DNA from: Bacteroidota bacterium
GTDB taxonomy: Bacteria > Bacteroidota > Bacteroidia > Bacteroidales > Lentimicrobiaceae
Assembly: GCA_009773515.1 (NCBI GenBank)
Contig: WSXX01000035.1
Location: 1-53,191 of the forward strand
Direction: 5' to 3'
DNA: 53,191 nt
Shown here in pieces: positions 23,955 to 37,902 of this stretch. Below the pieces are notes generated by a model that saw only the letters and a list, made by a program, of their open reading frames with translations, was not told the DNA's origin and ran no database searches. Each line of letters begins with the position of its first letter. The stretch's first letter is position 1. Made by a program: the position numbers and the translations under genes.

Positions 23955-25109
23955 ATGGAATTACTTACAAAAGAATTAATTCAGGAGCTTCTGGCAGCAG
24001 AGCAATCGCCATGTCTTTCCCTTTTTATGCCAACCCATAAAAACCACCCGGAAAATCTTCAGGATATCATCCTTTTTAAAAATCTTGTACGGGAAATGAA
24101 AGAATCGTTGTTGCAAAAATATTCAGGCGATGAGACACAAAAACATCTTAAACCTTTCGAGTCTCTTGCTGAGGATGAAAATTTCTGGAACCATACATCT
24201 GAAGGTTTGGCTGTTTTTAGTGCAGAGGGTTTGTTTAAAGTTGTAGGTGTAAATAAATCGTTTGATGAATTGGCCATGGTTGCAGACAGTTTCCATACCA
24301 AACCGCTGCGGCAATATTTACAATCTCTTGACCATTTCCACGTTTTGGGCGTATCGCTTCACGAAGTCCGGCTTTTCGAAGGCACACGTCATTCACTTAC
24401 CGAAGTTGAACTAAATGATGATACTCCAAAAACCATTACTGAAGCTCTTGGAGATGAATTGACAGAAAAGCATACAACTGTTGCCTCTTATGGTGGTTCA
24501 GCAGGAGAAAGTTCGTCCATGCATCACGGTCATGGTGGCAGAAAAGATGAAACTGAAATAGATGCTGAACGATTTTTTCGTGTCGTTGCGAATACGATTG
24601 ACGAACAATATTCGAAACCTTCAGGCTGGCCACTGATTCTGGCAGCATTAGCTGAACACCACAACCTTTTTCAAAAGGTCAATAAAAATCCATTATTACT
24701 AACCAATGGAATTACAATCGACCCTTCATCAGTTTCACCGGACAAACTTGCAATTATGGCCTGGGAAATAATGGAACCTGAATATAACCTGAAACTTGAC
24801 AACCTGGTTTCATGGTTTGAGCAGGCAAGGGCAAATGGCAAAGGTAGTGATGACTACAAGGAAGTTGCTGTAGCTGCAGTTGAGGGAAGGGTTGATACGC
24901 TTATTGTTGAATCTGACCGGATTATTGCCGTCAGGGTAACCAATCTGGTGACTGGAAATACACAGAATAAAGATCTGACAAATCCGAGAGTAGATGACCT
25001 GCTCGACGATCTGGGTGAATTGGTCATAAAAATGGGCGGGCAGGTGATGGTTCTTCCTCCCGATAAGATGCCTTCTGAAACAGGACTGGCAGCAATATTT
25101 CGTTACTAA
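23955..25109 (+). CDS. Bacterial archaeo-eukaryotic release factor (baeRF family 3-like) protein
   Basis: 384 residues, cytoplasmic. The start (LTKELIQELLAAEQSPCLSLFMPTH), the VSLHEVRLFEG block at about 135, a Gly/His-rich loop near 175-195 (SMHHGHGGRKDE) and the C-terminal LDDLGELVIKMGGQVMVLP match the layout of baeRF proteins, distant relatives of eRF1/Pelota. The expected catalytic loop is glycine-rich but has no GGQ tripeptide. Families of this type are proposed to act on stalled ribosomes. The next gene, 15 nt on, resembles a ribosome hibernation factor, consistent with a ribosome-directed stress module. Family call is fairly sure, function inferred. Confidence 0.75.
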   Translation: MELLTKELIQELLAAEQSPCLSLFMPTHKNHPENLQDIILFKNLVREMKESLLQKYSGDETQKHLKPFESLAEDENFWNHTSEGLAVFSAEGLFKVVGVNKSFDELAMVADSFHTKPLRQYLQSLDHFHVLGVSLHEVRLFEGTRHSLTEVELNDDTPKTITEALGDELTEKHTTVASYGGSAGESSSMHHGHGGRKDETEIDAERFFRVVANTIDEQYSKPSGWPLILAALAEHHNLFQKVNKNPLLLTNGITIDPSSVSPDKLAIMAWEIMEPEYNLKLDNLVSWFEQARANGKGSDDYKEVAVAAVEGRVDTLIVESDRIIAVRVTNLVTGNTQNKDLTNPRVDDLLDDLGELVIKMGGQVMVLPPDKMPSETGLAAIFRY

Positions 25110-25124
25110 CTAAATTTAAAAAAA

Positions 25125-25439
25125 ATGATAGTACAATTTAACACAGATAAAAATGTAGCCGGTAGTGAAGAACTCAAGGCTTCATCAACTTCTTTAATAT
25201 CGGAAGAACTTAGCAGGTTCAGTCAGCAGATAACCAGGGTTGAAGTTCATCTCTCAGATGAAGATGGCAATAAAGACACGGGCAACGATAAGCGCTGTAT
25301 GATAGAAGCACGGCTTGCAGGAATGAACCCAATCGCAGTTACCAATCAGGCAAACAACCATGAACAGGCCCTTTCCGGCGCTATTGACAAATTGAAAAGT
25401 TCTCTTGAAAAGGCAACCGGACGGCTAAAAGATTATTAA
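25125..25439 (+). CDS. HPF/RaiA-like ribosome-associated protein
   Basis: 104 residues with the beta-alpha-beta-beta-beta-alpha order of the S30AE/HPF family: an N-terminal strand (MIVQFNTDKN), helix (ISEELSRFSQQ), strands (ITRVEVHLSDEDG, DKRCMIEARLAG, NPIAVTNQANN) and a terminal helix (ALSGAIDKLKSSLEKATGRL). Family members bind the 30S decoding region and silence ribosomes. It lacks the C-terminal dimerisation domain of long HPF. It follows the baeRF gene by 15 nt and is almost certainly cotranscribed with it. Confidence 0.7.
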   Translation: MIVQFNTDKNVAGSEELKASSTSLISEELSRFSQQITRVEVHLSDEDGNKDTGNDKRCMIEARLAGMNPIAVTNQANNHEQALSGAIDKLKSSLEKATGRLKDY

Positions 25440-25501
25440 TTGCAGCTGTCCGGGGGAAATTAAAATTGTGCTTGCCGCAACGTCCCGCCTGTACTGCATT
25501 G

Positions 25502-25519
25502 CTTTGGGCATGCCCAAAG
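25502..25519. promoter_or_regulatory. Perfect 18-bp palindrome
   Basis: CTTTGGGCATGCCCAAAG is self-complementary along its whole length. It lies 63 nt after the HPF-like stop, in a 289-nt gene-free stretch. No T run follows, so a simple terminator is unlikely; a dimeric-protein site or micro-element are alternatives. Confidence 0.4.
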
Positions 25520-25728
25520 ACTCTGGTAGGTTTCAAATGAGCAAATAAAATTGGTGTTTAAAATAGTTCTGATTTTCGTCTTAATGATTGAATGCCCTGC
25601 ACAGCAAGGGAAGGTTTCGGGATATTGTATGTAGCGGCCAAAGAAGCTTATCAGGAATAATCAAAAAAACATTTGCAATTACTGCTTTTTAGAGGATAAT
25701 TTTTAACTTTCAGGTCAAATTCAAGACC

Positions 25729-26037
25729 ATGGAAAAGTTAAAAATTGTAAATGGATTTTCTTTAATTATCCTTTTATCAGCTTCGCTTATTTTATTATCA
25801 GGCTGTGCCAACAACGAAGCGGTTAAAGAATGTCTCAACGGGCAGACTTACGGATTCTGGTATGGTCTGTTTCATGGAATTATTGCACCAGTTAATCTGG
25901 TGCTGATGCTCTTCAGAGATGATATCACTGTATTTGCCCCCAATAACAACGGTGTTTGGTATGCTTTCGGGTTTGTGATTGGAAGCGGTGGATGGGGATT
26001 CTTTGGTGGCCGCGGGGCATCAGGAAGATGCAAGTAA
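25729..26037 (+). CDS. Small lipoprotein with hydrophobic C-terminal part
   Basis: 102 residues. The N-terminal signal ends in a lipobox (LLSGC, Cys at about 26), so it is probably lipidated and membrane-attached. The mature part has hydrophobic segments (FWYGLFHGIIAPVNLVLMLF and a Gly/Phe/Trp-rich end GSGGWGFFGG) separated by a short loop. The WYGLFHG...APVNL pattern resembles small conserved proteins of unknown function. Nothing in the neighbourhood assigns a role. Confidence 0.75.
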   Translation: MEKLKIVNGFSLIILLSASLILLSGCANNEAVKECLNGQTYGFWYGLFHGIIAPVNLVLMLFRDDITVFAPNNNGVWYAFGFVIGSGGWGFFGGRGASGRCK

Positions 26038-26225
26038 GGGCTTTTATAATCTTTAATAGAACCTTTTAAACTCTTTGGTGGTTGAATTTATCAGTCCGCC
26101 ATAGGCGTCATCTGTACATGCAGAACTTAAGTTTGGACTAATAAGGTCATTAAAACAGGACAATTTGTTTTTATTGAATCCTTCCAGATGTTTCACTCAT
26201 GTCCATATCATGTCCATTGGCTTAA

Positions 26226-26257
26226 CTTGTTTTCACACCTTCTGACAGATACTTTTG
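26226..26257 (+). promoter_or_regulatory. Bacteroidota-type promoter
   Basis: CTTG (26226-26229), a 20-nt spacer and TACTTTTG (26250-26257) match the -33/-7 consensus, 43 nt before the ATG of the T9SS propeller gene. Confidence 0.5.
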
Positions 26258-26300
26258 CAGGTGAAAAGAAAAAACTCTTTAACCCGTAAAAAACCTGATT

Positions 26301-27992
26301 ATGAAAGCAAAGCTTTACCTTGTTCTTATTGTGTTGATATTTTTGGCAGTCAGATTGTCTGCTCAATCGCATCATGCAGAATGGCTGGAGACCATTGAAA
26401 CCAACAATCACACCAATAGTCATATCAATAATATACTACATGACGGCTCTGACCTGATCATCAACGGATATTATTTTGGAAGCGGTGATTTCCTTGGCAT
26501 TGAACTTCCCTGGGCAGTTGGTGCCAATGCGGTAATTTCCAAATTCACCACCGAAGGCGAGCCCATCTGGACTACCTGCCTTACCGGTAATGATATTGAT
26601 GTGTTTTATGATATGGTGATTGACAATGACAATAATATCATTCTCACCGGGTGGACATCAAGTACAGATACCATCAGATTGAACGGGGAACCCGTAATCT
26701 ATAACAATGGACTATATTTAAATCATGGAATGGTGATGAAGATTTCATCCACCGATGGCAGCCTGATCTGGTTCAGGCACTTTGCAGGAGAGGAATATTA
26801 CACGCTCAATTCAACCAAACTGGCTGTTGATGAAAATAATGAGATTTACGTAACTGGCTACTATCAGACTCCTTTTCAATTGGACCAGGTCAGCTTTCCA
26901 TATGAAAAAATTTACGGTGACAATATTTTTATCCTGAAGCTGGATGCTGAGGGCACCGCAGTGTGGGGCCAATATCTTACAACAATCAGTGATGGAGGTT
27001 GGGCAATGATCAGATCGATAGTTTCAGGAAGTGCTGCAGTTTACTTTTCATTGGAATATTTTTCACCTTACATTGTTAATGGCGAGCCTTTGCCTTATTC
27101 AGGCGAATACTACTGGCTGGCCCTGATGAAAATGTCCAAAGAATCCGGAGAAATTACACACGTGAACGCTTTTGGAAGCGATGGCGGGCAGGTAATTCAG
27201 GACATTACAGCAGACAGCGAAGGTAATATTCTGGCGGTTGGGGTTTTTACATCTGAAACTCCGCTCACAATTGGCGATATCACCTTAGAGGGAAATGGTG
27301 GAAATGATGGATTTATTATGAAGACAGACAGCGAACTGAACAACCTCTGGGCTAAACCTATGGGTGGAGAGTACACTGACATGGCTTTTAATGTGAACAC
27401 TGACGAAAATGACCGCATTTATATAGGTGGTGGTTTCGACTGTTACACAGAATTTACCTATGATGGAGAGGTTGTCTTACCTGGCCGAAATCCTAACAGT
27501 CTGAGCAGTTTTCTTGTTGTAACAGATGAAAACGGTGAATTTGAGCATTCCTTCGGAATGTATGGAGAAGGCATTGAGAGTGTGATTTCATTCGCATCTG
27601 CAGCAGTCGTAAATGCCAATAACCAGGTGAACGTTTACTGTGCCGGAAACTTTTATGACAATGTAGAATTTGTTGAAAACAATGTTGCATATGCTGATCA
27701 CAATACCGGATATGTTTACAAATGGGTACTTCCTCTGGTGGTTTCGGCTGAAAATCAGGCAGCAAATGCCCAAATCAGCATTTATCCGAATCCGTTTACT
27801 GATTACCTGATGGTAAATTATCAAGGCGGACAGGCCAGAATAGACCTATATGATCAGAAAGGCAGCCTGGTTCTTTCTCAAACAATTACAGAGCAAGGGC
27901 GCTTTGCAGTTGATCATCTGAAAACCGGCACCTACCTGCTCAGATTAAGTACAGAAAAAACGGTGCAAACACTAAAGATAATTAAAAATTGA
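26301..27992 (+). CDS. T9SS-exported beta-propeller protein
   Basis: 563 residues with a signal peptide ending LSAQ (about residue 22). The body consists of repeating blades of the SBBP type, each pairing a variable strand with DNDNNIILTGWTSS- or DENNEIYVTGYY-like segments. A type A sorting domain follows from about residue 490 (ISIYPNPFTDYLMVNY, ending TLKIIKN). The protein should cross the outer membrane by T9SS with removal of the tail. No catalytic motif is visible, so a binding or structural role is likely. It has its own promoter and no cotranscribed partner upstream. Confidence 0.88.
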   Translation: MKAKLYLVLIVLIFLAVRLSAQSHHAEWLETIETNNHTNSHINNILHDGSDLIINGYYFGSGDFLGIELPWAVGANAVISKFTTEGEPIWTTCLTGNDIDVFYDMVIDNDNNIILTGWTSSTDTIRLNGEPVIYNNGLYLNHGMVMKISSTDGSLIWFRHFAGEEYYTLNSTKLAVDENNEIYVTGYYQTPFQLDQVSFPYEKIYGDNIFILKLDAEGTAVWGQYLTTISDGGWAMIRSIVSGSAAVYFSLEYFSPYIVNGEPLPYSGEYYWLALMKMSKESGEITHVNAFGSDGGQVIQDITADSEGNILAVGVFTSETPLTIGDITLEGNGGNDGFIMKTDSELNNLWAKPMGGEYTDMAFNVNTDENDRIYIGGGFDCYTEFTYDGEVVLPGRNPNSLSSFLVVTDENGEFEHSFGMYGEGIESVISFASAAVVNANNQVNVYCAGNFYDNVEFVENNVAYADHNTGYVYKWVLPLVVSAENQAANAQISIYPNPFTDYLMVNYQGGQARIDLYDQKGSLVLSQTITEQGRFAVDHLKTGTYLLRLSTEKTVQTLKIIKN

Positions 27993-28069
27993 GTCTTATC
28001 TTTATCGGAAGGAACAAGGCATCCTGAGCATAGCCTGATAAGATGGGCAAGGCCTGATAAACTGGATAA

Positions 28070-29860
28070 ATGGCAAGCAATAAACAACACTCCCCAGGCA
28101 GCAGCAGAAGATTTTATATCCTTCTGCTGTTGGCTGGTTTTTTCTTATTTGCATTCCCTCAAAACGACTCGGGCGTCAATCTGAAGAACAAAGTCGAAAC
28201 CCTGCTCAATGATAATGATATTATTTCGGCCAACCGCCTGCTCAATCGCAACACTTCTCTTGATCCGGAGTATGTTATTGAAGTTCTGAACCTGAATCTT
28301 GCCAAAGCAAAATCCGAAGAAGATTCTGAAGCACTGGCATACACGTATCTTTCAATCGGAAATTTCTGGCTGATGCGCACCAATAATATCAAAGCCTATG
28401 AAAACTTTTATCAGGCAGAAAAACTAAGCCGGCAGAATCATTTCGACTGGATATTGGCCCTTGCCATGATGAACCGTTCTCACCTCGAACCTGATATAGA
28501 AAGCAGGATTAACCTGCTCAGAGAAGCCATTGAAATGTTTGGAAAACTTAACGATCCGGTTAATCTTGCAAAGGCTCACCTGAACCTCGGGCAGGTATTC
28601 AGCAACTACCTGAGGGCGGATAGCCTTAAAAAAAGCAACCGTGGGAATGATGTATCTTTAAATCCTCCTGCTTTTAATCCGTCATACCGTGATTCCGCCT
28701 TTTCTCATTACCATATTGCCGGCAGGCTTAACGACAGCATCAGCCATCCTGAGATTGAGGCATCTGTTAATGTACATTTTGCTGAATGGTATAAATTTGA
28801 GGGTGATTTTATCAAAGCACAGGAGTTTTTCGAAACGGCTTCACACTTTTTTGGACTGGCAAATCAAGCCAAAGGACAGATATATTGCCTTATCGAGATG
28901 GCAGATATAAATGTAATCAAAGGTGAATATCCGGAAGCTGCCATGAAGCTGGAAAAATGCATGGAATGGGCCGGCCGGATGGGTTTCAACGATTATCTTT
29001 CCACTGTTTACAATAAGTTTACTATTTTGTATGAGAAAACAGGACAACTGGAAAAAGCATTAAATTATCAACGGCTCTATACCCAAAGCCTGACCCAGCT
29101 TAATGAAGTAATCAGTCAGGACAGAATTCATTCCCTTAACCTTGAATATGCACTGTCCGAGCAAAACAATCTGATCAGCAGCCTGAATCATAAAAAGCAG
29201 ACCAACCGCCTTTTAATGATCCTCATTTCTTCAGCTGCACTGCTTGCAATCATAACATCCTATCTGCTGGTCCAGAACAAAAGGCGAAAGTTGCAACTGA
29301 TCGCTCTACAGGTTGAAGAAACCCGTCGGCTGAATGAAATGAAGCAAAATCTGATGGAAGCTGATCTGGCCCGCCAGCAGTTGGAAAAGGATTTGCTGGA
29401 AGAAAAGGTAAAGGTAAGGACAGAACGGATTATTATGATTGCAAACCAGATCAACAAACTGGATACTTTTCTGCAATCCATGAGCCATGATGTAAAATCA
29501 CTGGTCAATAATCCGGAAAGCAACGAGCTGGCGAAAAAAATCAATGATCTGAAGCTTTCATTATCGCAAAGCATGTATGAACAAACGAACCTGCGTGAGC
29601 TTCAGGCACTTTCCACTGAAACCAACCAGGATTTCTTCTTTCACATCGGGCAAAAATATGAAGGAATCACCCGCGATGACATAAAACTTCTTTCATTTCT
29701 GGTGATGAATATGGCTTCAAAGGAGATTTCAGGCCATTTCAATATATCTCAGGAAAGTGTAAATAAAAAGAGGTACAGGCTGCGTCAGAAACTTGGCATT
29801 CATCAGGGAAAATCATTTGCAGAATTTTACCGAGAAACACTTGAAAAACTGCATGGATGA
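28070..29860 (+). CDS. TPR sensor with transmembrane helix, coiled coil and LuxR-like HTH
   Basis: 596 residues. An N-terminal hydrophobic segment (residues 15-30) acts as signal or anchor. Tetratricopeptide-like helices occupy about 45-370. A transmembrane helix lies at about 381-401 (LMILISSAALLAIITSYLL). A charged coiled coil spans about 405-470, and a C-terminal helix-turn-helix covers about 530-580 (ITRDDIKLLSFLVMNMASKE, then ESVNKKRYRLRQKLGI). This is a common Bacteroidota one-component transmembrane regulator architecture. It probably senses through the periplasmic TPRs and binds DNA in the cytoplasm. The gene starts 77 nt after the T9SS propeller gene and might be coexpressed with it. 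Confidence 0.85.
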   Translation: MASNKQHSPGSSRRFYILLLLAGFFLFAFPQNDSGVNLKNKVETLLNDNDIISANRLLNRNTSLDPEYVIEVLNLNLAKAKSEEDSEALAYTYLSIGNFWLMRTNNIKAYENFYQAEKLSRQNHFDWILALAMMNRSHLEPDIESRINLLREAIEMFGKLNDPVNLAKAHLNLGQVFSNYLRADSLKKSNRGNDVSLNPPAFNPSYRDSAFSHYHIAGRLNDSISHPEIEASVNVHFAEWYKFEGDFIKAQEFFETASHFFGLANQAKGQIYCLIEMADINVIKGEYPEAAMKLEKCMEWAGRMGFNDYLSTVYNKFTILYEKTGQLEKALNYQRLYTQSLTQLNEVISQDRIHSLNLEYALSEQNNLISSLNHKKQTNRLLMILISSAALLAIITSYLLVQNKRRKLQLIALQVEETRRLNEMKQNLMEADLARQQLEKDLLEEKVKVRTERIIMIANQINKLDTFLQSMSHDVKSLVNNPESNELAKKINDLKLSLSQSMYEQTNLRELQALSTETNQDFFFHIGQKYEGITRDDIKLLSFLVMNMASKEISGHFNISQESVNKKRYRLRQKLGIHQGKSFAEFYRETLEKLHG

Positions 29861-29963
29861 ATTATGCAGAAGTAACTTATCAGGTTCAGAGTCCAAATCA
29901 TTAACCCTGTATTTGTTACAAATGATAACGATATTTGCAGTACAAATAAAATCCGCATAAACA

Positions 29964-29988
29964 AAAAACCCTGATAATCAGGGTTTTT
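29964..29988. terminator. Bidirectional terminator
   Basis: AAAAACCCTGA pairs with TCAGGGTTTTT around a 3-nt loop. A runs before and T runs after the stem suit both directions, separating the TPR regulator (plus) from tRNA-Arg (minus). Confidence 0.8.
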
Positions 29989-30023
29989 AAGTGTCAATAA
30001 GGAAAAGTAAAATTTAATATTTG

Positions 30024-30095
30024 TAGCCCCGACAGGAATCGAACCTGTATTTAAAGTTTAGGAAACTTCCGTTCTATCCGTTGAACTACGGAGCC
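30024..30095 (-). tRNA. tRNA-Arg (anticodon CCT)
   Basis: On the minus strand the 72-nt sequence folds as a cloverleaf: acceptor GGCTCCG with CGGGGCT, D arm GTTCAACGGATAGAAC, anticodon stem GAAGT/ACTTT with loop TTCCTAA (anticodon CCT), and T arm ACAGGTTCGATTCCTGT. Base pair 1-72 is G-T. No CCA is encoded. Three partial copies lie upstream of it in transcription order. Confidence 0.92.
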
Positions 30096-30112
30096 AATTA
30101 TTTTTTATTCAT

Positions 30113-30176
30113 CTCTGTATTTCAAAGTTTAGGATCTCGTCACCCGTGACGAGACTATCCGTTGAACTACGGAGCC
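30113..30176 (-). pseudogene. tRNA-Arg remnant 1 with inserted hairpin
   Basis: It retains the 5' acceptor, the D arm and the 3' side of the anticodon arm of tRNA-Arg. The 11 nt of the 5' anticodon stem region are replaced by 21 nt that form a perfect 9-bp hairpin: TCTCGTCAC (30135-30143), CC, GTGACGAGA (30146-30154). The T arm and 3' acceptor are missing. Confidence 0.8.
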
Positions 30177-30199
30177 ATCTTTTTATTTATTTATTCAAT

Positions 30200-30263
30200 C
30201 TCTGTATTTCAAAGTTTAAGATCTCGTCACTGGTGACGAGACAATCCGTTGAACTACGGAGCC
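30200..30263 (-). pseudogene. tRNA-Arg remnant 2 with inserted hairpin
   Basis: The same structure as remnant 1, with the same 9-bp arms (30222-30230 and 30233-30241) but a TG loop instead of CC. It lies 87 nt from remnant 1, end to end. Confidence 0.8.
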
Positions 30264-30284
30264 AATATTTAATTAATTATTCAA

Positions 30285-30325
30285 CCTGTGTATTCAAAGT
30301 CAGGCAGACGCTGAACTGCAGATCC
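30285..30325 (-). pseudogene. tRNA-Arg remnant 3, strongly decayed
   Basis: CCTGTGTATTCAAAGTCAGG and CGCTGAACTGCAGATCC resemble the corresponding parts of remnants 1 and 2, without a hairpin. It is the most diverged and most upstream copy of the tandem set. Confidence 0.5.
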
Positions 30326-30399
30326 ATTTTTCTAATGGGCTGCAAAATTAATAAATATCCTGAAGCTGTGCAAATGAGATTTTGAGCGACAATGCTTAT

Positions 30400-31038
30400 T
30401 CACAATTTATCAAACGCACCACACCTGAAATCATTATCATCTTTCTGGTCGTGCCGGTTTATATTGCAAAGAAGATTTTCCTCCCAATCATCGGTAAAAT
30501 ATTTTTTACAGGTAATGCATAACCCTGGAGTTGGTATTGTTTCAATGTCAACCTTGGTTCCATCATCATTATAAAATCCATTTACTTCTACCTGGGGAGG
30601 AGCGGTTTCAGGATCAAAATCAAGAAATCTTTTCAGGGAGTTTAACAAGTGCTCATGCTTATACTTATACCATTCAATATTATAGTCTGCTTGTTCGATG
30701 TAAGACTTTAGTTTCATTATTTGCTCTTTTTCCAATAGATAATCATCCAGCCCTTCAGTCTGAAAAAGGTCAGAGATAACGTCTTTTGCAAAATCTCTAA
30801 TAACATATTGATATTCAAAGTAATGTATAGGATCCAATCTAATGGATACCTTCCACTCCGACTCAATTTTATTGAACAGGCTGATATAGGGTTCAATGGT
30901 GGGTTTATATTCCTGATCCATAACCGAATATGGGATTTCTACAACTTCAAAAGTATCAGCATTAAGGTAACAGGCATTACCGGCTTCTCTGCTCCGAACA
31001 ATCATATCGAGAACTTCCGGAGGATAATTTCTTTTCAT
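30400..31038 (-). CDS. Hypothetical cytoplasmic protein with C-terminal zinc-ribbon-like cysteines
   Basis: 212 residues with no signal peptide. The beginning (GNACYLNADTFEVVEIPYSV) and a later HYFEYQYVIRDFAKDV stretch recall UPF0158-type proteins, which start with a similar converted-to-strand motif; I hold this loosely. The C-terminus has CITCKKYF, then CNINRHDQKDDNDFRC about 20 residues on. Four cysteines and a histidine there could form a metal site. The gene is alone between the tRNA-Arg tandem and the M64 peptidase. Function unknown. Confidence 0.65.
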   Translation of the reverse strand: MKRNYPPEVLDMIVRSREAGNACYLNADTFEVVEIPYSVMDQEYKPTIEPYISLFNKIESEWKVSIRLDPIHYFEYQYVIRDFAKDVISDLFQTEGLDDYLLEKEQIMKLKSYIEQADYNIEWYKYKHEHLLNSLKRFLDFDPETAPPQVEVNGFYNDDGTKVDIETIPTPGLCITCKKYFTDDWEENLLCNINRHDQKDDNDFRCGAFDKL

Positions 31039-31282
31039 AGCTGATATTTCTATGCAGGTAATGCTTGAATATATAAAGAGGTTTTGAGAACCAAAAATAA
31101 TGATTTTTCATCTGGCTTTCTGTTTTTTATAATTGAATGCCATGTCTGTTTCAAAAATAAAGCCAATCAGCAGCTGTTTGAAAACACCTCTTCCCGGTAA
31201 AAGACATTAAAGTGATCCAAAGCATACCATAATAGTTCAACAATCCCTACTTTTGTAAGCTGTCAATTATATCAATGTGATC

Positions 31283-32551
31283 ATGAAAAATTTCCTGTTA
31301 CTGCTCATTTCACTTATCTCTCTAACTGCTTCGGCTCAGTTCGAGAAGTACTTCTACAACAAAACCCTGCGCATCGATTACATGCATGCCGGCACTGCCG
31401 ATACTGATGTTTATGCGCTTGACGAGCTGATTGATGAGCCTTTCTGGGGTGGATCAAAAACCAATCTGATTTGCCCGTTCAATTACGGAAATTACAAATT
31501 CACGCTTACCGATGAGGCAAGCGGTGAACTGATTTATTCTAAAGGTTATTCCAGCCTGTTCGCTGAATGGCAAACCACTGCTGAAGCCCGGGAAATTACA
31601 CGTTCGTATCCTGAAAATGTAGTGATGCCGTATCCTAAAAAGCCAGTGACCGTTGATTTCTACAAACGCAAACGCGATGGAGAATGGGAAAAACAGTTCA
31701 CCCTGAAAGTTGATCCGAAAAGTTACTTTATTAAAAAAGAACGTCGCCACGAATTCCCTTACTTCATGGTAAATGATGCCGGCAAACCCGAAGAATGTCT
31801 TGATATTGTTTTTGTTCCGGAAGGTTACACCCTTGCAGAAATGGACAAATTTAAAGCCGACAGCAAGCGACTGGCTGAGTTCCTGCTCAACTGCAAACCC
31901 TTTGATGAGTACAAAGGCAAAATCAATATATATGGAGTTGAAGCTCCATCGGTTGAGAGTGGTGCCGATATTCCCGGCAAGGACATCTGGAAGAAAACCA
32001 TCCTCAACAGCAACTTTTACACCTTTGATATTGAACGTTACCTCACCACTGCCGACATGAAAAGCGTGCGCGATGTAGCCGCCAATGTTCCCTACGATCA
32101 GATTTGTGTGATTGCAAATTCACAGATTTATGGCGGTGGCGGTATTTACAACCACTATGCACTTTTTACGAGCGACAATCCTTTTGCAAATTATGTGTTT
32201 GTGCATGAGTTCGGTCACAGTTTTGCCGGACTGGGCGATGAATATTACAATTCGGAAGTTGCCTACGAAGATTTCTACAACCTCAGCATCGAGCCCTGGG
32301 AGCCAAACATAACCACACTGGTCAACTTTGAAACCAAATGGAAAGATATGGTTCCGGAAGGAACTCCCATTCCTACTCCTGAAAAAGATAAGGAAAAGTA
32401 TCCTGTTGGAGCTTATGAAGGCGGTGGATATATGACCAAAGGGATTTTCCGCCCGGCTCATGATTGTACCATGAAATCACTTTCTTACAACAATTTTTGT
32501 CCGGTTTGCCAGAAAGCCATCCGCGAAAAAATTGAATTTTATACCAAGTAA
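31283..32551 (+). CDS. Secreted M64 (IgA protease-like) metallopeptidase
   Basis: I start at the ATG at 31283, where a signal peptide begins (MKNFLLLLISLISLTASAQ), rather than at the upstream GTG; this gives 422 residues. An N-terminal M64 domain comes first. The catalytic domain contains ECLDIVFVPEGYT at about 170 and the zincin motif HEFGHSFAGLGDEYY with His308 and His312 as zinc ligands and Glu309 as the base. It has no T9SS tail, so it is probably periplasmic or exported otherwise. A TACTTTTG -7 box at 31248-31255 leaves a leader of about 24 nt. Confidence 0.92.
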   Translation: MKNFLLLLISLISLTASAQFEKYFYNKTLRIDYMHAGTADTDVYALDELIDEPFWGGSKTNLICPFNYGNYKFTLTDEASGELIYSKGYSSLFAEWQTTAEAREITRSYPENVVMPYPKKPVTVDFYKRKRDGEWEKQFTLKVDPKSYFIKKERRHEFPYFMVNDAGKPEECLDIVFVPEGYTLAEMDKFKADSKRLAEFLLNCKPFDEYKGKINIYGVEAPSVESGADIPGKDIWKKTILNSNFYTFDIERYLTTADMKSVRDVAANVPYDQICVIANSQIYGGGGIYNHYALFTSDNPFANYVFVHEFGHSFAGLGDEYYNSEVAYEDFYNLSIEPWEPNITTLVNFETKWKDMVPEGTPIPTPEKDKEKYPVGAYEGGGYMTKGIFRPAHDCTMKSLSYNNFCPVCQKAIREKIEFYTK

Positions 32552-32585
32552 TAACGAATATCTGCATACCTGAATCCCCTTAAGT

Positions 32586-33305
32586 TTGAAACTAAAAACC
32601 CACTTCACCGACCTTGGCCTGATTGAGTACGGAACTGCATGGAACCTTCAGGAACGCTTGTTTAACAGCATCATAGCTCAAAAAAAAGCAGGGCTTGCCG
32701 AAACTGACAACTACCTGCTTTTCTGCGAACACCCGCATGTATATACGCTGGGGAAAAGCGGATCGGAAAACAATCTGCTGCTTGATATGATTCAGCTTCA
32801 GGCAAAAGATGCAAGCTTTTTCCGCACAAACAGAGGTGGCGACATTACCTATCATGGTCCGGGACAGATTGTGGGATATCCCATACTGAACCTTGAAGCC
32901 ATTGTAAAGGGAGCCCGCGAATACATTGAAAAAATGGAGGAAGCCATTATCCTCACACTGGCTCATTACGGCCTGGCATCTGAACGCCTCGACGGTGCAA
33001 CCGGCGTATGGCTCGATACCGATAATCCTGAAAAAACCCGTAAGATCTGCGCCATAGGCGTGCGAACCAGTCACTGGGTAAGCATGCATGGATTTGCCTT
33101 TAATGTGAACACCAACCTTCAATACTTTAACTACATCAATCCATGTGGTTTTACTGATAAATCAGTAACTTCGCTCTCGAAAGAACTGAGCCGTGAGATA
33201 GAAACCGAAGAAGTAAAATCTGTGCTGGCCGATAAACTGGCGGATGTGTACGGACTTGATTTGCTGAATATGCCGGTTAGTGAACTGAATCAGACACAAT
33301 TTTAA
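32586..33305 (+). CDS. lipB: Octanoyl-ACP:protein N-octanoyltransferase
   Basis: 239 residues from a TTG start; the first in-frame ATG would delete conserved sequence. LipB moves octanoyl groups from acyl carrier protein to lipoyl domains in the cytoplasm, the first step of lipoate synthesis. Signatures are EHPHVYTLGKSG, RGGDITYHGPGQ (83-94), the catalytic lysine in KICAIGVR (153) and the acyl-accepting cysteine in INPCGFTDK (187). It begins 34 nt after the M64 peptidase stop, so it may be read from the same transcript. The weak start codon implies modest expression. Confidence 0.96.
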   Translation: MKLKTHFTDLGLIEYGTAWNLQERLFNSIIAQKKAGLAETDNYLLFCEHPHVYTLGKSGSENNLLLDMIQLQAKDASFFRTNRGGDITYHGPGQIVGYPILNLEAIVKGAREYIEKMEEAIILTLAHYGLASERLDGATGVWLDTDNPEKTRKICAIGVRTSHWVSMHGFAFNVNTNLQYFNYINPCGFTDKSVTSLSKELSREIETEEVKSVLADKLADVYGLDLLNMPVSELNQTQF

Positions 33306-33477
33306 AAAATACGCTGTTACCCTGCAAAATCAAAGAAAGAGCTTACTGCGACTCGAGTACATTCTGCGGTCTCGGGAAAGAACCAAGACTCTATGTTTTC
33401 AATAAGTGTTCAAAATAATTTCGTGTAATTTTGTGCCTTAGTGCTTTGGTGGCAAAATTTATTAAAGTAGTATTTCA

Positions 33478-34089
33478 ATGAAAAAAATAAATTCCATTTG
33501 CGTCTTTTGCGGATCCTCTCCCGGTGCCGATCCCGATTTTACCACTTCTGCCAGGGAGCTTGGCAAACTGATGGGCCAACAGGGAATTACTTTGGTTTAT
33601 GGCGGAAGCAATATTGGTCTGATGCGAGCCATTGCTGATGCCTGCCTCGCCGAAGGTGGGCATGTGATTGGCGTTATGCCCCAGGGGTTGATTGACCGCG
33701 AAGTTGCTTACACCGATCTTAAAGAGTTTCATGTGGTGGAATCCATGAGTATCCGCAAAGAAAAAATGGCAATGCTCTCAGATGCTTTTATTGCCATGCC
33801 TGGCGGTATCGGCACACTTGATGAAATTTTTGAAGCCATGTCGTGGAATCAGCTCGAAATAATGGATAAGCCAGTTGCCTTGCTCAATACAAAAGGTTTT
33901 TACGATCAGCTTGTCGGTTTCCTGAATTACACGGTTGAACAAAAATTTGTCAGGCCCGAACACCGGAATAACCTTCTGGTTGATGAAAACCCTGAAAAAC
34001 TCCTCGAAGCCATTGAAAATTATGTTTCCCTGAAAGTTGACAGTAAATGGATTGATGATTTGAAGGCGGAGACGGCTAAGCGATTTTAG
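33478..34089 (+). CDS. LOG-family (TIGR00730) nucleotide phosphoribohydrolase
   Basis: 203 residues, Rossmann-like, cytoplasmic. It shows the family pattern VFCGSSPG at the start, YGGSNIGLM at about 41-49, RKEKM at 93-97 and PGGIGTLDE at 108-116, the last being the nucleotide-binding and catalytic signature. Plant and bacterial LOG proteins release the free base from cytokinin nucleoside monophosphates; many bacterial members act on AMP-like nucleotides. Which substrate applies here is not visible. The upstream TAATTTTG box (33426-33433) fits a -7 element. Confidence 0.93.
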   Translation: MKKINSICVFCGSSPGADPDFTTSARELGKLMGQQGITLVYGGSNIGLMRAIADACLAEGGHVIGVMPQGLIDREVAYTDLKEFHVVESMSIRKEKMAMLSDAFIAMPGGIGTLDEIFEAMSWNQLEIMDKPVALLNTKGFYDQLVGFLNYTVEQKFVRPEHRNNLLVDENPEKLLEAIENYVSLKVDSKWIDDLKAETAKRF

Positions 34090-34633
34090 GGGAGAAGGGA
34101 CGAGGGACGTTTCATTTCAGGGACGAGGGACGGATTCAGGACAAGGTGACAAGGAGACTGGGAGACAAGGGGATTGAAGCGGGACAGGGTTCGGTTTTGG
34201 GGCGAGGGTCGGTTTTGGGACGAGGGACGGAACGGAAGTCGAGCGGAGTCGAGACCGAATCAGGACTGGGAGATAAGGAGACAAGGAGACAAGGAGACTT
34301 GAGGACGAGGGGTGAAGATCAAAAATTGTAAATAATTGCTTAAATGCCAAAGAAGTGCGTCCTTCTCCTCAAGGAGAAGGTGCCCGAAGGGCGGATGAGG
34401 TGCTAAAAGGACTGGGAGACAAGGAGACTGGGAGACAAGGAGACTTGAGGACTAGGGGTGAAGATCAAAAATTGTAAATAATTGCTTAAATCGCAAAGCA
34501 GTGCGTCCTTCTCCTTGAGGAGAAGGTGCCCGAAGGGCGGATGAGGTGCTAAAAGGACAAGGAGAGGTAATAGGGACGTGGGACGAAAACTAGGGACGAG
34601 GGACGAACGTAGATCGAGTCAATACCGAAGGGA
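34090..34633. repeat. Low-complexity repeats with two REP-like double hairpins
   Basis: 544 nt without a gene. Purine-rich words (GGGACGAGGGACG, GACAAGGAGACTGGGAGAC) are reiterated. A unit of about 146 bp occurs twice in tandem, ending at about 34411 and 34556. Each contains CCTTCTCC-4 nt-GGAGAAGG (34361-34380 and 34507-34526), followed at once by GCCC-GAA-GGGC. This two-hairpin shape resembles bacterial REP elements. No REP-associated transposase is in the window. Confidence 0.7.
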
Positions 34634-35617
34634 TCACAAACCATTCACAAAACCCGATATTCCTGCAATATCCTGTTCCATCATACACTTAAAGTGACCT
34701 TTCGGACATTTTTCAAAACCTATTTTGCTGCAAGGCCGGCATGACAATCCTTTAACTTCAGCCATCAGCTGAGGAATATCTTTCGCCAGATATGGGTACA
34801 TCCCAAGCTCAGGAACTGTATTTCCCCATATTGAAACAATGGGCTTGCTGAATGCAGCCGCAATATGCATCAATCCTGTGTCGTTGGTTATAATGGCTTT
34901 TGCTTGTCTCACAATGGATGCCGATTGCATCAGATTGAATTTCCCGCAGGCATTATACGCTGTTACTCCTTCAGCCGATGAAATGGCTTCTCCCCTTTCC
35001 TTATCTTCATGACCACCGAGCAAAACCACAGGCATATCGAGCATACGGCAGATTTCTATCGCCTTTTCAACCGGAAGTATTTTGGTGTTGTGTTTGCCGC
35101 CTGTCACCAATCCGATATAACCACCTTTAAAAGGAGAAGGAAGATCTTCAACATCAAATTCCATTTCTGCCGGTATATAAAACTCCAGACCAGATCCATC
35201 ATTTTTTATACCCAATTGCTCAGCTGCATGCAGGTAACGGTCAACAATATGAACATCGGGCATAACCCTGATTTTAAATCTTACCAGCAACCACTTACGC
35301 AGGTTCAGTTTATCAAACCTGCTGAACGGGCGCCTCAATGCCAGAATTACCTGCCACGATCGCAGGTTGTTGTGCAGGTCTATGATGTGATCATACTGCT
35401 GTTCGCGAAGTTCAGGCAACACTTCTGAAACACTTTTCCTGATGGATATAACCCTGTCGATACGCGGATTGGCCCTGAGAATAGGTGCAAAAGTTTCTTT
35501 GGTAAGAAAATGAATCTCTACATCATCCATTTGCTGCTTCAGACAACGCACCACCGGAGAAGTAAGCACAATGTCACCAATGGAACTGAAACGGATAATC
35601 AGGATTTTGCGGGGCAT
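34634..35617 (-). CDS. Glycosyltransferase family 9 (heptosyltransferase-like)
   Basis: I start at 35617, where the conserved N-terminus begins (MPRKILIIRFSSIGD), giving 327 residues; the longer frame would run across the start of divergent tatD. GT9 enzymes transfer heptose or related sugars from nucleotide donors to lipopolysaccharide core at the inner membrane's cytoplasmic face. Seen motifs are SIGDIVLTSPVV, DLHNNLRSW, GLVTGGKHNTKILP and the donor-site segment TNDTGLMHIAAAFSKPIVSIWG. No other lipopolysaccharide gene is adjacent. Confidence 0.9.
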   Translation of the reverse strand: MPRKILIIRFSSIGDIVLTSPVVRCLKQQMDDVEIHFLTKETFAPILRANPRIDRVISIRKSVSEVLPELREQQYDHIIDLHNNLRSWQVILALRRPFSRFDKLNLRKWLLVRFKIRVMPDVHIVDRYLHAAEQLGIKNDGSGLEFYIPAEMEFDVEDLPSPFKGGYIGLVTGGKHNTKILPVEKAIEICRMLDMPVVLLGGHEDKERGEAISSAEGVTAYNACGKFNLMQSASIVRQAKAIITNDTGLMHIAAAFSKPIVSIWGNTVPELGMYPYLAKDIPQLMAEVKGLSCRPCSKIGFEKCPKGHFKCMMEQDIAGISGFVNGL

Positions 35618-35710
35618 GAGAAAAAGCAGTCTTTTGGCAAAAGTAAGAAAAAGCATCAGAATACATATTAACCAATACAGGCTGACAGGCTTTTTACTAT
35701 TTACTTCCAT

Positions 35711-35718
35711 TATCTTTG
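35711..35718 (+). promoter_or_regulatory. -7 element four nt before the tatD start codon
   Basis: TATCTTTG is a perfect TAnnTTTG box. Only CAAA separates it from the ATG, so a transcript from it would be nearly leaderless. A good -33 TTTG is not seen at the right distance. Confidence 0.45.
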
Positions 35719-35722
35719 CAAA

Positions 35723-36547
35723 ATGATTTTTATCGACACGCACACACATCTTTACCTCGAAGAATTTGAGCCCGATCGCCATCAGATGGTGGAAAGAGCC
35801 ATTGAAGCTGGTGTAAAATACATGATGTTGCCCAACATCGACAGCACATCGGTGCACCCGATGCTGGAACTTTGCAAGGAATTTCCCGGCAATATCATGC
35901 CAATGATAGGACTTCACCCCACTTCAGTTAAGGAAAATTATATGGACCAGCTGGCTGCTGTCGAATGCTGGCTGCTCGACCGCAAATTTTACGGCATAGG
36001 TGAGTGCGGAATGGATTTTTACTGGGATAAAACATTCATCAACGAACAGGAAATTGCTTTCCGTCATCAGATTGATCTGGCGAGGGCGTATAATCTTCCG
36101 CTGATTGTGCACATCAGGGAGTCGTTCAACGAAGTAATAAAAATTCTGAAAGATGTAAACAAGCCTGACCTTCGCGGGATATTTCATTGCTTTTCAGGAA
36201 GTGTGGAGCAAGCAAAGCAAGCCATTGATCTGGGATTCAGTCTTGGGCTGGGAGGCGTAACTACCTTCAAGAACAACAAGATGCAGGAAACCCTGAAGCA
36301 TATTGATCTGAAACATCTGGTACTGGAAACTGATGCGCCGTTTCTTGCGCCCATGCCACATCGCGGCAAACGCAATGAGCCGGCATACATTCCGTTGATC
36401 GCCCAAAAGATTGCTGAAATCAAAGGCATATCCGTTGAAGAAGTTGCTCAGGCAACCACTGAAAATGCAATGAAATTGTTTCGCATTGCAAACAATGAAA
36501 TAATGGAGTCTGCCTCAGGTGAACCATCTTCAGCCAAACATAATTGA
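35723..36547 (+). CDS. tatD: TatD-family metal-dependent deoxyribonuclease
   Basis: 274 residues, a TIM-barrel amidohydrolase-superfamily member of the cytoplasm. The metal ligands DTHTHLY (His7, His9), GECGMDFYW (Glu), LIVHIRES (His), FHCFSG (His) and LETDAPFLAP (Asp) are all present in the expected order. TatD proteins are 3'-5' exonucleases acting on DNA ends, and may serve in DNA repair. The frame overlaps the longer form of the downstream asparaginase frame; with the start chosen there, the gap is 25 nt, consistent with one operon. Confidence 0.94.
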   Translation: MIFIDTHTHLYLEEFEPDRHQMVERAIEAGVKYMMLPNIDSTSVHPMLELCKEFPGNIMPMIGLHPTSVKENYMDQLAAVECWLLDRKFYGIGECGMDFYWDKTFINEQEIAFRHQIDLARAYNLPLIVHIRESFNEVIKILKDVNKPDLRGIFHCFSGSVEQAKQAIDLGFSLGLGGVTTFKNNKMQETLKHIDLKHLVLETDAPFLAPMPHRGKRNEPAYIPLIAQKIAEIKGISVEEVAQATTENAMKLFRIANNEIMESASGEPSSAKHN

Positions 36548-37814: not shown

Positions 37815-37902
37815 GGAGAGATGGCCGAGTGGTCGAAGGCGCACGCCTGGAAAGTGTGTATATGCCAAAAGCGTATCATGGGTTCGAATCCCATTCTCTC
37901 AA
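37815..37902 (+). tRNA. tRNA-Ser (anticodon GGA), with an atypical 3' acceptor end
   Basis: A class II cloverleaf: acceptor GGAGAGA with TCTCTCA, D arm GCCGAGTGGTCGAAGGC, anticodon stem CACGC/GTGTG with loop CTGGAAA (anticodon GGA), long variable arm ATATGC/GCGTAT, and T arm ATGGGTTCGAATCCCAT. Position 72 is A opposite G1, and position 73 is A instead of the usual serine discriminator G; no CCA is encoded. It lies 54 nt upstream of exbB. Confidence 0.85.

Follow-up and report, generated by a model that had tools for sequence, protein, structure and literature searches.

Partial tRNA gene copies with palindromic arms at tRNA-Arg(CCT) and a proposed, apparently widespread GIY-YIG nuclease element at tRNA genes of Bacteroidota

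The stretch of DNA analyzed here (the window) comprises 53,191 nucleotides of contig WSXX01000035.1 from a member of the Lentimicrobiaceae (Bacteroidota) and contains an intact tRNA-Arg(CCT) gene, on whose 5′ side lie three partial copies of the same gene (Table 1). A preliminary description had placed the copies at a spacing of 62-87 nt, in agreement with the measured values of 81, 87, and about 62 nt. In the two nearer copies, 20-nt perfect palindromes (TCTCGTCACNNGTGACGAGA) stand for 10 nt, namely tRNA positions 23-32; on the forward strand they read TCTCGTCAC-CC-GTGACGAGA and TCTCGTCAC-TG-GTGACGAGA, so that the arms are identical and the loops differ, as had been reported. The account of the hairpin swap held for the retained tRNA positions 1-22, the retained 3′ side of the anticodon, and the 9-bp arms, whereas the length of the replacement is 20 nt, not 21. 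The script places the junction of the farther hairpin copy at 20|36 because of point changes there. Allowing up to three mismatches, TCTCGTCACNNGTGACGAGA has two matches in the window versus a mean of 0.00 in 100 dinucleotide shuffles, and a chance origin of the palindromes was thus ruled out. No Rfam family other than tRNA reached its gathering score.

Table 1. Features of the tRNA-Arg(CCT) array, in window coordinates.
Feature	Position	Strand	Basis or remark
Intact tRNA-Arg, anticodon CCT	30023..30095	(-)	ARAGORN; Rfam RF00005, 65.8 bits
Copy nearest the tRNA, whole	30115-30176	(-)	Three parts: 5′ part, palindrome, 3′ part
Nearest copy, 5′ part = tRNA 1-22, 100% identical	30155..30176	(-)	Sequence comparison
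Nearest copy, palindrome in place of tRNA 23-32; 9-bp arms, 2-nt loop	30135..30154	(-)	
Nearest copy, 3′ part = tRNA 33 to about 50	30115..30134	(-)	
Second copy, whole	30202-30263	(-)	Three parts as in the nearest copy
Second copy, 5′ part = tRNA 1-22, one change	30242..30263	(-)	
Second copy, palindrome; arms as in the nearest copy, loop different	30222..30241	(-)	
Second copy, 3′ part	30202..30221	(-)	
Farthest copy, decayed, hairpin absent	30285..30325	(-)	Read by comparison with the other copies
Promoter-like box TAATTTTG (TAnnTTTG)	30343..30350	(-)	Copies lie between box and tRNA
Inverted repeat 3′ of the tRNA, with a T run; terminator-like	29964..29988	(-)	

Another hairpin, at 138-185 of the window, has 12-bp arms (TCTCGTCAGAAA/TTTCTGACGAGA) and a longer loop; the sequence it had been said to share with the arms of the copies is the core TCTCGTCA, which is present in both, and no recognizable tRNA copy surrounds it. 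The second tRNA of the window, tRNA-Ser(GGA) at 37815-37902, was found to have no partial copies. With Pfam, the ten reading frames around tRNA-Arg (23955-36547) gave no match to an integrase or to a GIY-YIG domain. Integrase attachment at a tRNA usually duplicates only the tRNA 3′ end, whereas the copies in the window retain its 5′ half. The earlier suggestion of att-site debris is therefore not supported by the ten frames, by the 5′-side copies, or by the gene linked to such copies elsewhere, which encodes a GIY-YIG nuclease.

The pattern TCTCGTCA-N(0-30)-TGACGAGA was searched through all 5.03 Mb of the window's genome and occurs at five places, always inside a partial copy of a tRNA; tRNA-Arg has two of them, tRNA-Gly(CCC) one, and a single unit at tRNA-Asp the other two. 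The hairpin at 138-185 falls outside the pattern, its loop being too long. A genome-wide dispersed repeat was rejected on this count, as the five places are all in tRNA copies. In 25 stretches covering the other listed tRNAs of this genome, no partial copies were found, save one 11-nt match. At tRNA-Asp (contig C28), a 95-aa GIY-YIG frame separates the intact tRNA from the palindromic copies, and this locus has the same TCTCGTCA palindrome as the tRNA-Arg array; the nuclease is absent at the tRNA-Arg and tRNA-Gly loci of the genome. The link with a nuclease is thus invisible from the window alone, since the tRNA-Arg locus there lacks one.

Comparison with relatives found such copies and hairpins to be recurrent across Bacteroidota, and loci with and without copies both occur at tRNA-Arg(CCT). 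This tRNA was recovered in 18 of 19 genomes of the genus, with copies in eight and none in ten (10 of 18 sites empty). The copies lie on the 5′ side in G000, G004, and G006 (decayed), on both sides in G012, and on the 3′ side in G007, G015, G017, and G003 (a remnant behind Ns). The junction 22|33, read by eye, occurs with four palindromes (TCTCGTCAC.., TCCCGCAGCTGCGGGA, TCCCGCCACCGGCGGGG, and CCCCGCCACGGCGGGG), of which TCCCGCCACCGGCGGGG is identical on both sides of the tRNA in G012. A constant site combined with turnover of the palindrome points to a process acting at a set place in the tRNA. A nuclease gene lies directly behind tRNA-Arg(CCT) in G824 (L359), so this tRNA is nuclease-linked elsewhere. 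The same architecture is seen in the isolates Perlabentimonas gracilis (L049/L125), Flavobacterium hiemivividum (L030), and Chryseobacterium salipaludis (L090) and in MAGs, including the chromosome record CP058707 (L053); an assembly artefact, which had been raised as a possible objection, is therefore unlikely, and the hairpin-replaced tRNA copies are confirmed as real.

The box in the window lies 255 nt from tRNA-Arg(CCT), beyond the last copy, and its TAnnTTTG form is what we take to be the Bacteroidota -7 motif. Because the copies lie between this promoter-like box and the tRNA, they appear to be inside the tRNA transcription unit and, judging by this arrangement, are probably transcribed. 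A TAnnTTTG box is present within 300 nt upstream of tRNA-Arg(CCT) in 18 of 18 genus loci, 21-30 nt from the tRNA where a 5′ copy is absent and beyond the copies in G000, G004, G012, and G006. The position of the 5′ copies in these four genomes would suit a function in RNA, suggested earlier as a tRNA-derived RNA of altered structure; transcription of the copies would yield pseudo-tRNAs that cannot be charged on account of their hairpin and that serve as decoys or antidotes, for instance where a nuclease cuts tRNA. Some units do fold with a rebuilt acceptor-like stem, in a fold survey that was mixed overall, some loops are GNRA-like by eye, and an Slx1-family fusion hints at RNA metabolism in the portion of PMC1564403 covered here. 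However, the 5′ end of the tRNA is missing from many 3′ copies, the tRNA pieces left by the junctions vary and are often unfolded, and G·T wobbles, viewed by eye and uncounted, have no clear strand preference. GIY-YIG enzymes are, to our knowledge, DNA nucleases, which also counts against a function in RNA, and we consider this explanation improbable.

The pattern was found in 11 of 99 genomes among relatives and in 10 of 395 class genomes, own genome counted in both tallies, which take in matches outside tRNAs. Among the matches listed, those near matching tRNA copies are from Bacteroidota and lie at Asp, Gly, Arg, Ser, Pro, and Thr. The junctions recur for each tRNA, as with Asp 38|51 in many lineages; other Asp junctions are 8|22, 41|51, and 57|63. 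A stem (shuffle p<0.05) was present in 44 of the 48 inserts found by script, many of which come from loci found by palindrome, and in 21 of 23 in the Asp and nuclease samples described below; L248, L314, L049 Ser, and one of L053 are the four without a significant stem. In dozens of cases the palindrome fills the insert exactly or nearly so. Insertion of a micro-element into duplicated tRNAs, one of three suggestions made earlier, comes nearest to these data, with the amendment that palindromes recurrently replace arms at fixed junctions in the copies.

The same data bear on a plainer account, in which the copies would be tandem duplicates of the tRNA that have decayed and bear hairpins by chance, or else scars left by an integrase. 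Tandem duplication of tRNAs is common, and the farthest copy in the window is decayed; nevertheless, the dozens of palindrome-filled inserts, the recurrent junctions, and the expectation of zero by chance in the window speak against chance hairpins, as do the ten integrase-free frames around the window tRNA against scars. This account, already disfavored by the inserts, the nuclease tree described below, and the comparison of tRNA-Arg(CCT) across the genus, is very improbable.

Several further matches were noted outside tRNA copies. At 1045-1064 of L209 (G018, same genus), TCTCGTCATTTCTGACGAGA lies inside a frame that resembles the last part of a group II intron maturase, to which it adds a stop codon (by eye); in L207, a locus without a tRNA, a repeat of about 290 bp occurs three times (at 1021, 1315, and 1607), each time with TCTCGTCATGACTGACGAGA. 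Hairpins with TCTCGTCA in seeming 23S rRNA helix tips (L205, L206, L210, and L081) were set aside and may be chance occurrences in a variable helix; those in terminator-like stems (L200, L202, L031, and L057; by eye) were likewise set aside and may be chance in existing stems. Viral contig stretches containing the palindrome (17) gave a single weak tRNA match, on one side only, which was not accepted. A phage origin of the nuclease was rejected, with no match in 50,697 phage records.

The linked gene encodes a stand-alone GIY-YIG nuclease (Pfam PF01541), with frames mostly of 70-105 aa. The Y, G, R, H, E, and K positions, presumably the active-site residues of a GIY-YIG nuclease, are invariant in 43 of 43 aligned tRNA-linked nucleases. 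The closest solved structures are 1zg2 (E=2e-7) and 1ywl (1.8e-6), both named as bacterial Slx1 members in the part of PMC1564403 considered. With this match and its stand-alone domain, the linked nuclease, itself outside the window, is of the bacterial Slx1 type. A predicted structure made without an alignment was poor (pTM 0.25), and no result rests on it.

Since the search by palindrome is biased, tRNA-Asp loci were sampled; the pattern for this sample occurred in 83 of 99 class genomes, and 70 loci were read. In five of these, the locus has its own nuclease within about 600 nt behind tRNA-Asp. Hairpin copies of tRNA-Asp accompany four of the five loci with their own nuclease versus 3 of the 65 without (p=1.8e-4; p=1.5e-3 without the window's genome), where single 10-nt seed matches (L229, L248, L256, and L275) were taken as chance and L259, with a nuclease behind tRNA-Arg(TCT) and hairpin copies of that tRNA, was scored as without an Asp nuclease. 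The palindromes of this sample are unlike one another (TCCCGGCTGAGCCGGGA, TCCCCAACGATGTTGGGGA, and others).

A second sample started from the nuclease, using the Asp nuclease of the window's genome as the query at E<=1e-8 in 99 class genomes. A small GIY-YIG nuclease match was present in 33 of the 99 Bacteroidia genomes; 30 loci were taken and 29 analyzed, L328 being dropped with no nuclease hit there. At 26 of the 29 loci the nuclease lies at a tRNA or tRNA copy, and in 20 it lies behind an intact tRNA (Asp, Met, Asn, Ala, Val, or Ser), with 20-65 nt up to the beginning of the protein match. The other nine comprise two at 255 and 408 nt behind a tRNA, two mirrored (Asn and Glu), two at palindromic copies only, and three elsewhere. 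By eye, 23 of the 26 tRNA-associated loci have a hairpin in an arm of one or more tRNA copies, imperfect or weak in L309, L312, L314, and L326; L305 has a nuclease with no copy found, and L313 and L316 have no clear hairpin. The nuclease stop codon lies within 40 nt of an 8-nt tRNA match in 25 of 28 loci, and four more have no match. In the tRNA-Val group (L317, L320, L322, and L310), the last codons of the nuclease and its stop apparently come from the tRNA copy and the palindrome loop (by eye).

A tree was built from 52 nucleases and 90 columns and has 7 starred forks out of 49; the six hits interrupted by stops, dropped at extraction, and the short rows L022 and L331c are not in it. The nucleases group by tRNA across host families. 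Asp requires 3 changes on the tree versus 14.6 when shuffled, although many Asp rows come from palindrome searches and some are near-copies, both of which favor clustering; Met requires 1 versus 5.8 and Val 1 versus 4.9, and for each of the three no shuffle in 500 was as low. All tRNA labels together require 15 changes versus 32.7 (0 of 200 shuffles as low). Clustering on the nuclease tree is weaker for Asn and Ala (34 of 500) and absent for Ser. Genomes with two nucleases have one per tRNA group (Met and Ala in G143; Asp and Met in G168). Such clustering could come from old insertions inherited vertically. Eight tRNA-less nucleases (L224, L225, L319, L321, L332, L333, L337, and L334) form one clade; all but L334 lie near other inverted repeats, some of them with a variable stem and the constant loop GAGCTTGTCGA (by eye).

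Among the palindromes of one locus, the arms are alike and the loops mostly different. Across 64 hairpins curated by eye, the first 7 nt of the arms are 94% identical within loci, versus at most 89% in within-tRNA shuffles (0 of 5000), and 52 of the 64 palindromes start with TC and end with GA; shared arms may come partly from tandem duplication. Nine other genomes with TCTCGTCA arrays at non-Asp tRNAs were searched for the Asp-type nuclease, and five of them (G001, G013, G823, G824, and G827) have it together with the same palindrome. G826 has a degenerate Asp-type nuclease and no visible palindrome, while G017, G005, and G825 gave no Asp-type nuclease at E<=1e-6. G012 is not among the nine, as its TCTCGTCA palindrome occurs only at Asp.

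The linked nuclease thus belongs to a superfamily associated with homing, keeps the active-site residues, and follows, by position and in the tree, the tRNA that is its presumed target. However, homing would destroy the target by insertion, whereas here the tRNA next to the element is intact and native. With the native sequence preserved in this tRNA, plain homing does not explain why it is uncut, and no movement of the element was observed.

In its complete form, the observed architecture comprises, in order, a 5′ tRNA copy with a palindrome, the intact tRNA, a terminator, the small stand-alone GIY-YIG gene, a 3′ copy with a palindrome, and a terminator; at many loci, either the 5′ or the 3′ copy is lacking. 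In the reading proposed here, the nuclease would cut or nick its cognate tRNA gene, or a hairpin that the arm of this gene can extrude, and repair or segmental duplication would then leave an intact tRNA together with displaced tRNA parts. In these parts the target arm would be replaced by a palindrome cognate to the nuclease, which would remove the native target from them, and the palindromes would mark the cognate site of the nuclease in spare copies. The Asp-linked nuclease of the window's genome may also have worked in trans, at tRNA-Arg and at tRNA-Gly. We favor the reading of the window array as a remnant or trans-product of such a system, and think it somewhat probable that it is the nuclease-less remnant of a tRNA-targeting Bacteroidota element with a bacterial Slx1-type GIY-YIG nuclease. 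More tentatively, and short of probable, the elements may form a class of tRNA-specific Slx1-type GIY-YIG nucleases, each attacking one tRNA gene and having its own palindrome code, in which spare parts rewritten with the cognate hairpin frame the intact tRNA, either as the ends of the element or as marks for self-protection, and in trans at other tRNAs too.

Alternatively, the palindrome itself may be mobile, in the manner of REP sequences, with an Slx1-type nuclease that recognizes extruded hairpins and swaps the tips of tRNA arms for its own palindrome; hits in intact tRNAs would be lethal, and only spare copies would survive. It would fit this account that D, anticodon, and T arms are all affected, sometimes two per copy, with the same arms in the two-arm copies of L306 and L338 and different arms in those of L344. 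The clade of tRNA-less nucleases, seven of which lie near other inverted repeats by eye, and the match to 1zg2 and 1ywl as bacterial Slx1 members (PMC1564403, as far as covered) are also consistent with it. Against it, the pattern search of the window's genome found the palindrome in tRNA copies only, the longer-looped hairpin at 138-185 excepted, L334 has no such repeats by eye, a GTAG tag is generally absent, and the model alone leaves the tRNA duplications unexplained. A mobile palindrome of this kind is unlikely, though less so than a function in RNA.

If the preferred reading of a nuclease-borne element is true, placement, tRNA-following clades, and matching palindromes give a predicted target and cognate DNA structure for each nuclease. 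It would add to the selfish systems of bacteria one directed against essential tRNA genes, account for puzzling annotated pseudo-tRNAs, and supply a natural set of tRNA-gene-specific nucleases. In the literature searched, with subscription journals largely outside its coverage, no description of such an element and no settled role for the small GIY-YIG genes of Bacteroidia were found; apparently, this is a widespread and undescribed selfish element targeting tRNA genes.

Among known systems, SegB likewise has its GIY-YIG gene beside tRNA genes, but it is phage-borne and longer than the Bacteroidota tRNA-linked nucleases, which are short (about 80-95 aa), reside on bacterial chromosomes, and are nearest to the Slx1-type family. 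SegB of T-even phages is a free-standing GIY-YIG homing endonuclease whose gene lies beside tRNA genes and which makes breaks inside them; it amplifies tandem tRNA-segB units, likely via recombination of the tRNA 5′ region with the segB 3′ end, and the portion of the source considered makes no mention of palindromes in tRNA copies, which are present in ours (PMC13096335). By analogy, the Bacteroidota nucleases may act on tRNA genes much as SegB does. The bacterial Slx1/UPF0213 proteins share Pfam PF01541 and the sequence match to 1zg2 and 1ywl; the part of PMC1564403 covered predicts repair or RNA roles for them, describes yeast Slx1 as part of a structure-specific nuclease, and does not mention residence at tRNA genes.

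Short palindromes are also found in REP/RAYT systems (PMC3733652). The tetranucleotide tag of these systems (GTAG or CGTC) generally has no counterpart here, where the left flanks vary (GATAG, GGTAG, GTCA, CATA, and GCA). REP palindromes are linked to a small nuclease-type gene, RAYT; the gene linked here is GIY-YIG and not a Y1 (HUH) tyrosine transposase, and the palindromes sit in tRNA copies. Rickettsia palindromic elements are short hairpins inserted into genes, whereas in the Bacteroidota loci duplicated tRNA copies have arms swapped for palindromes, in most cases next to a nuclease gene.
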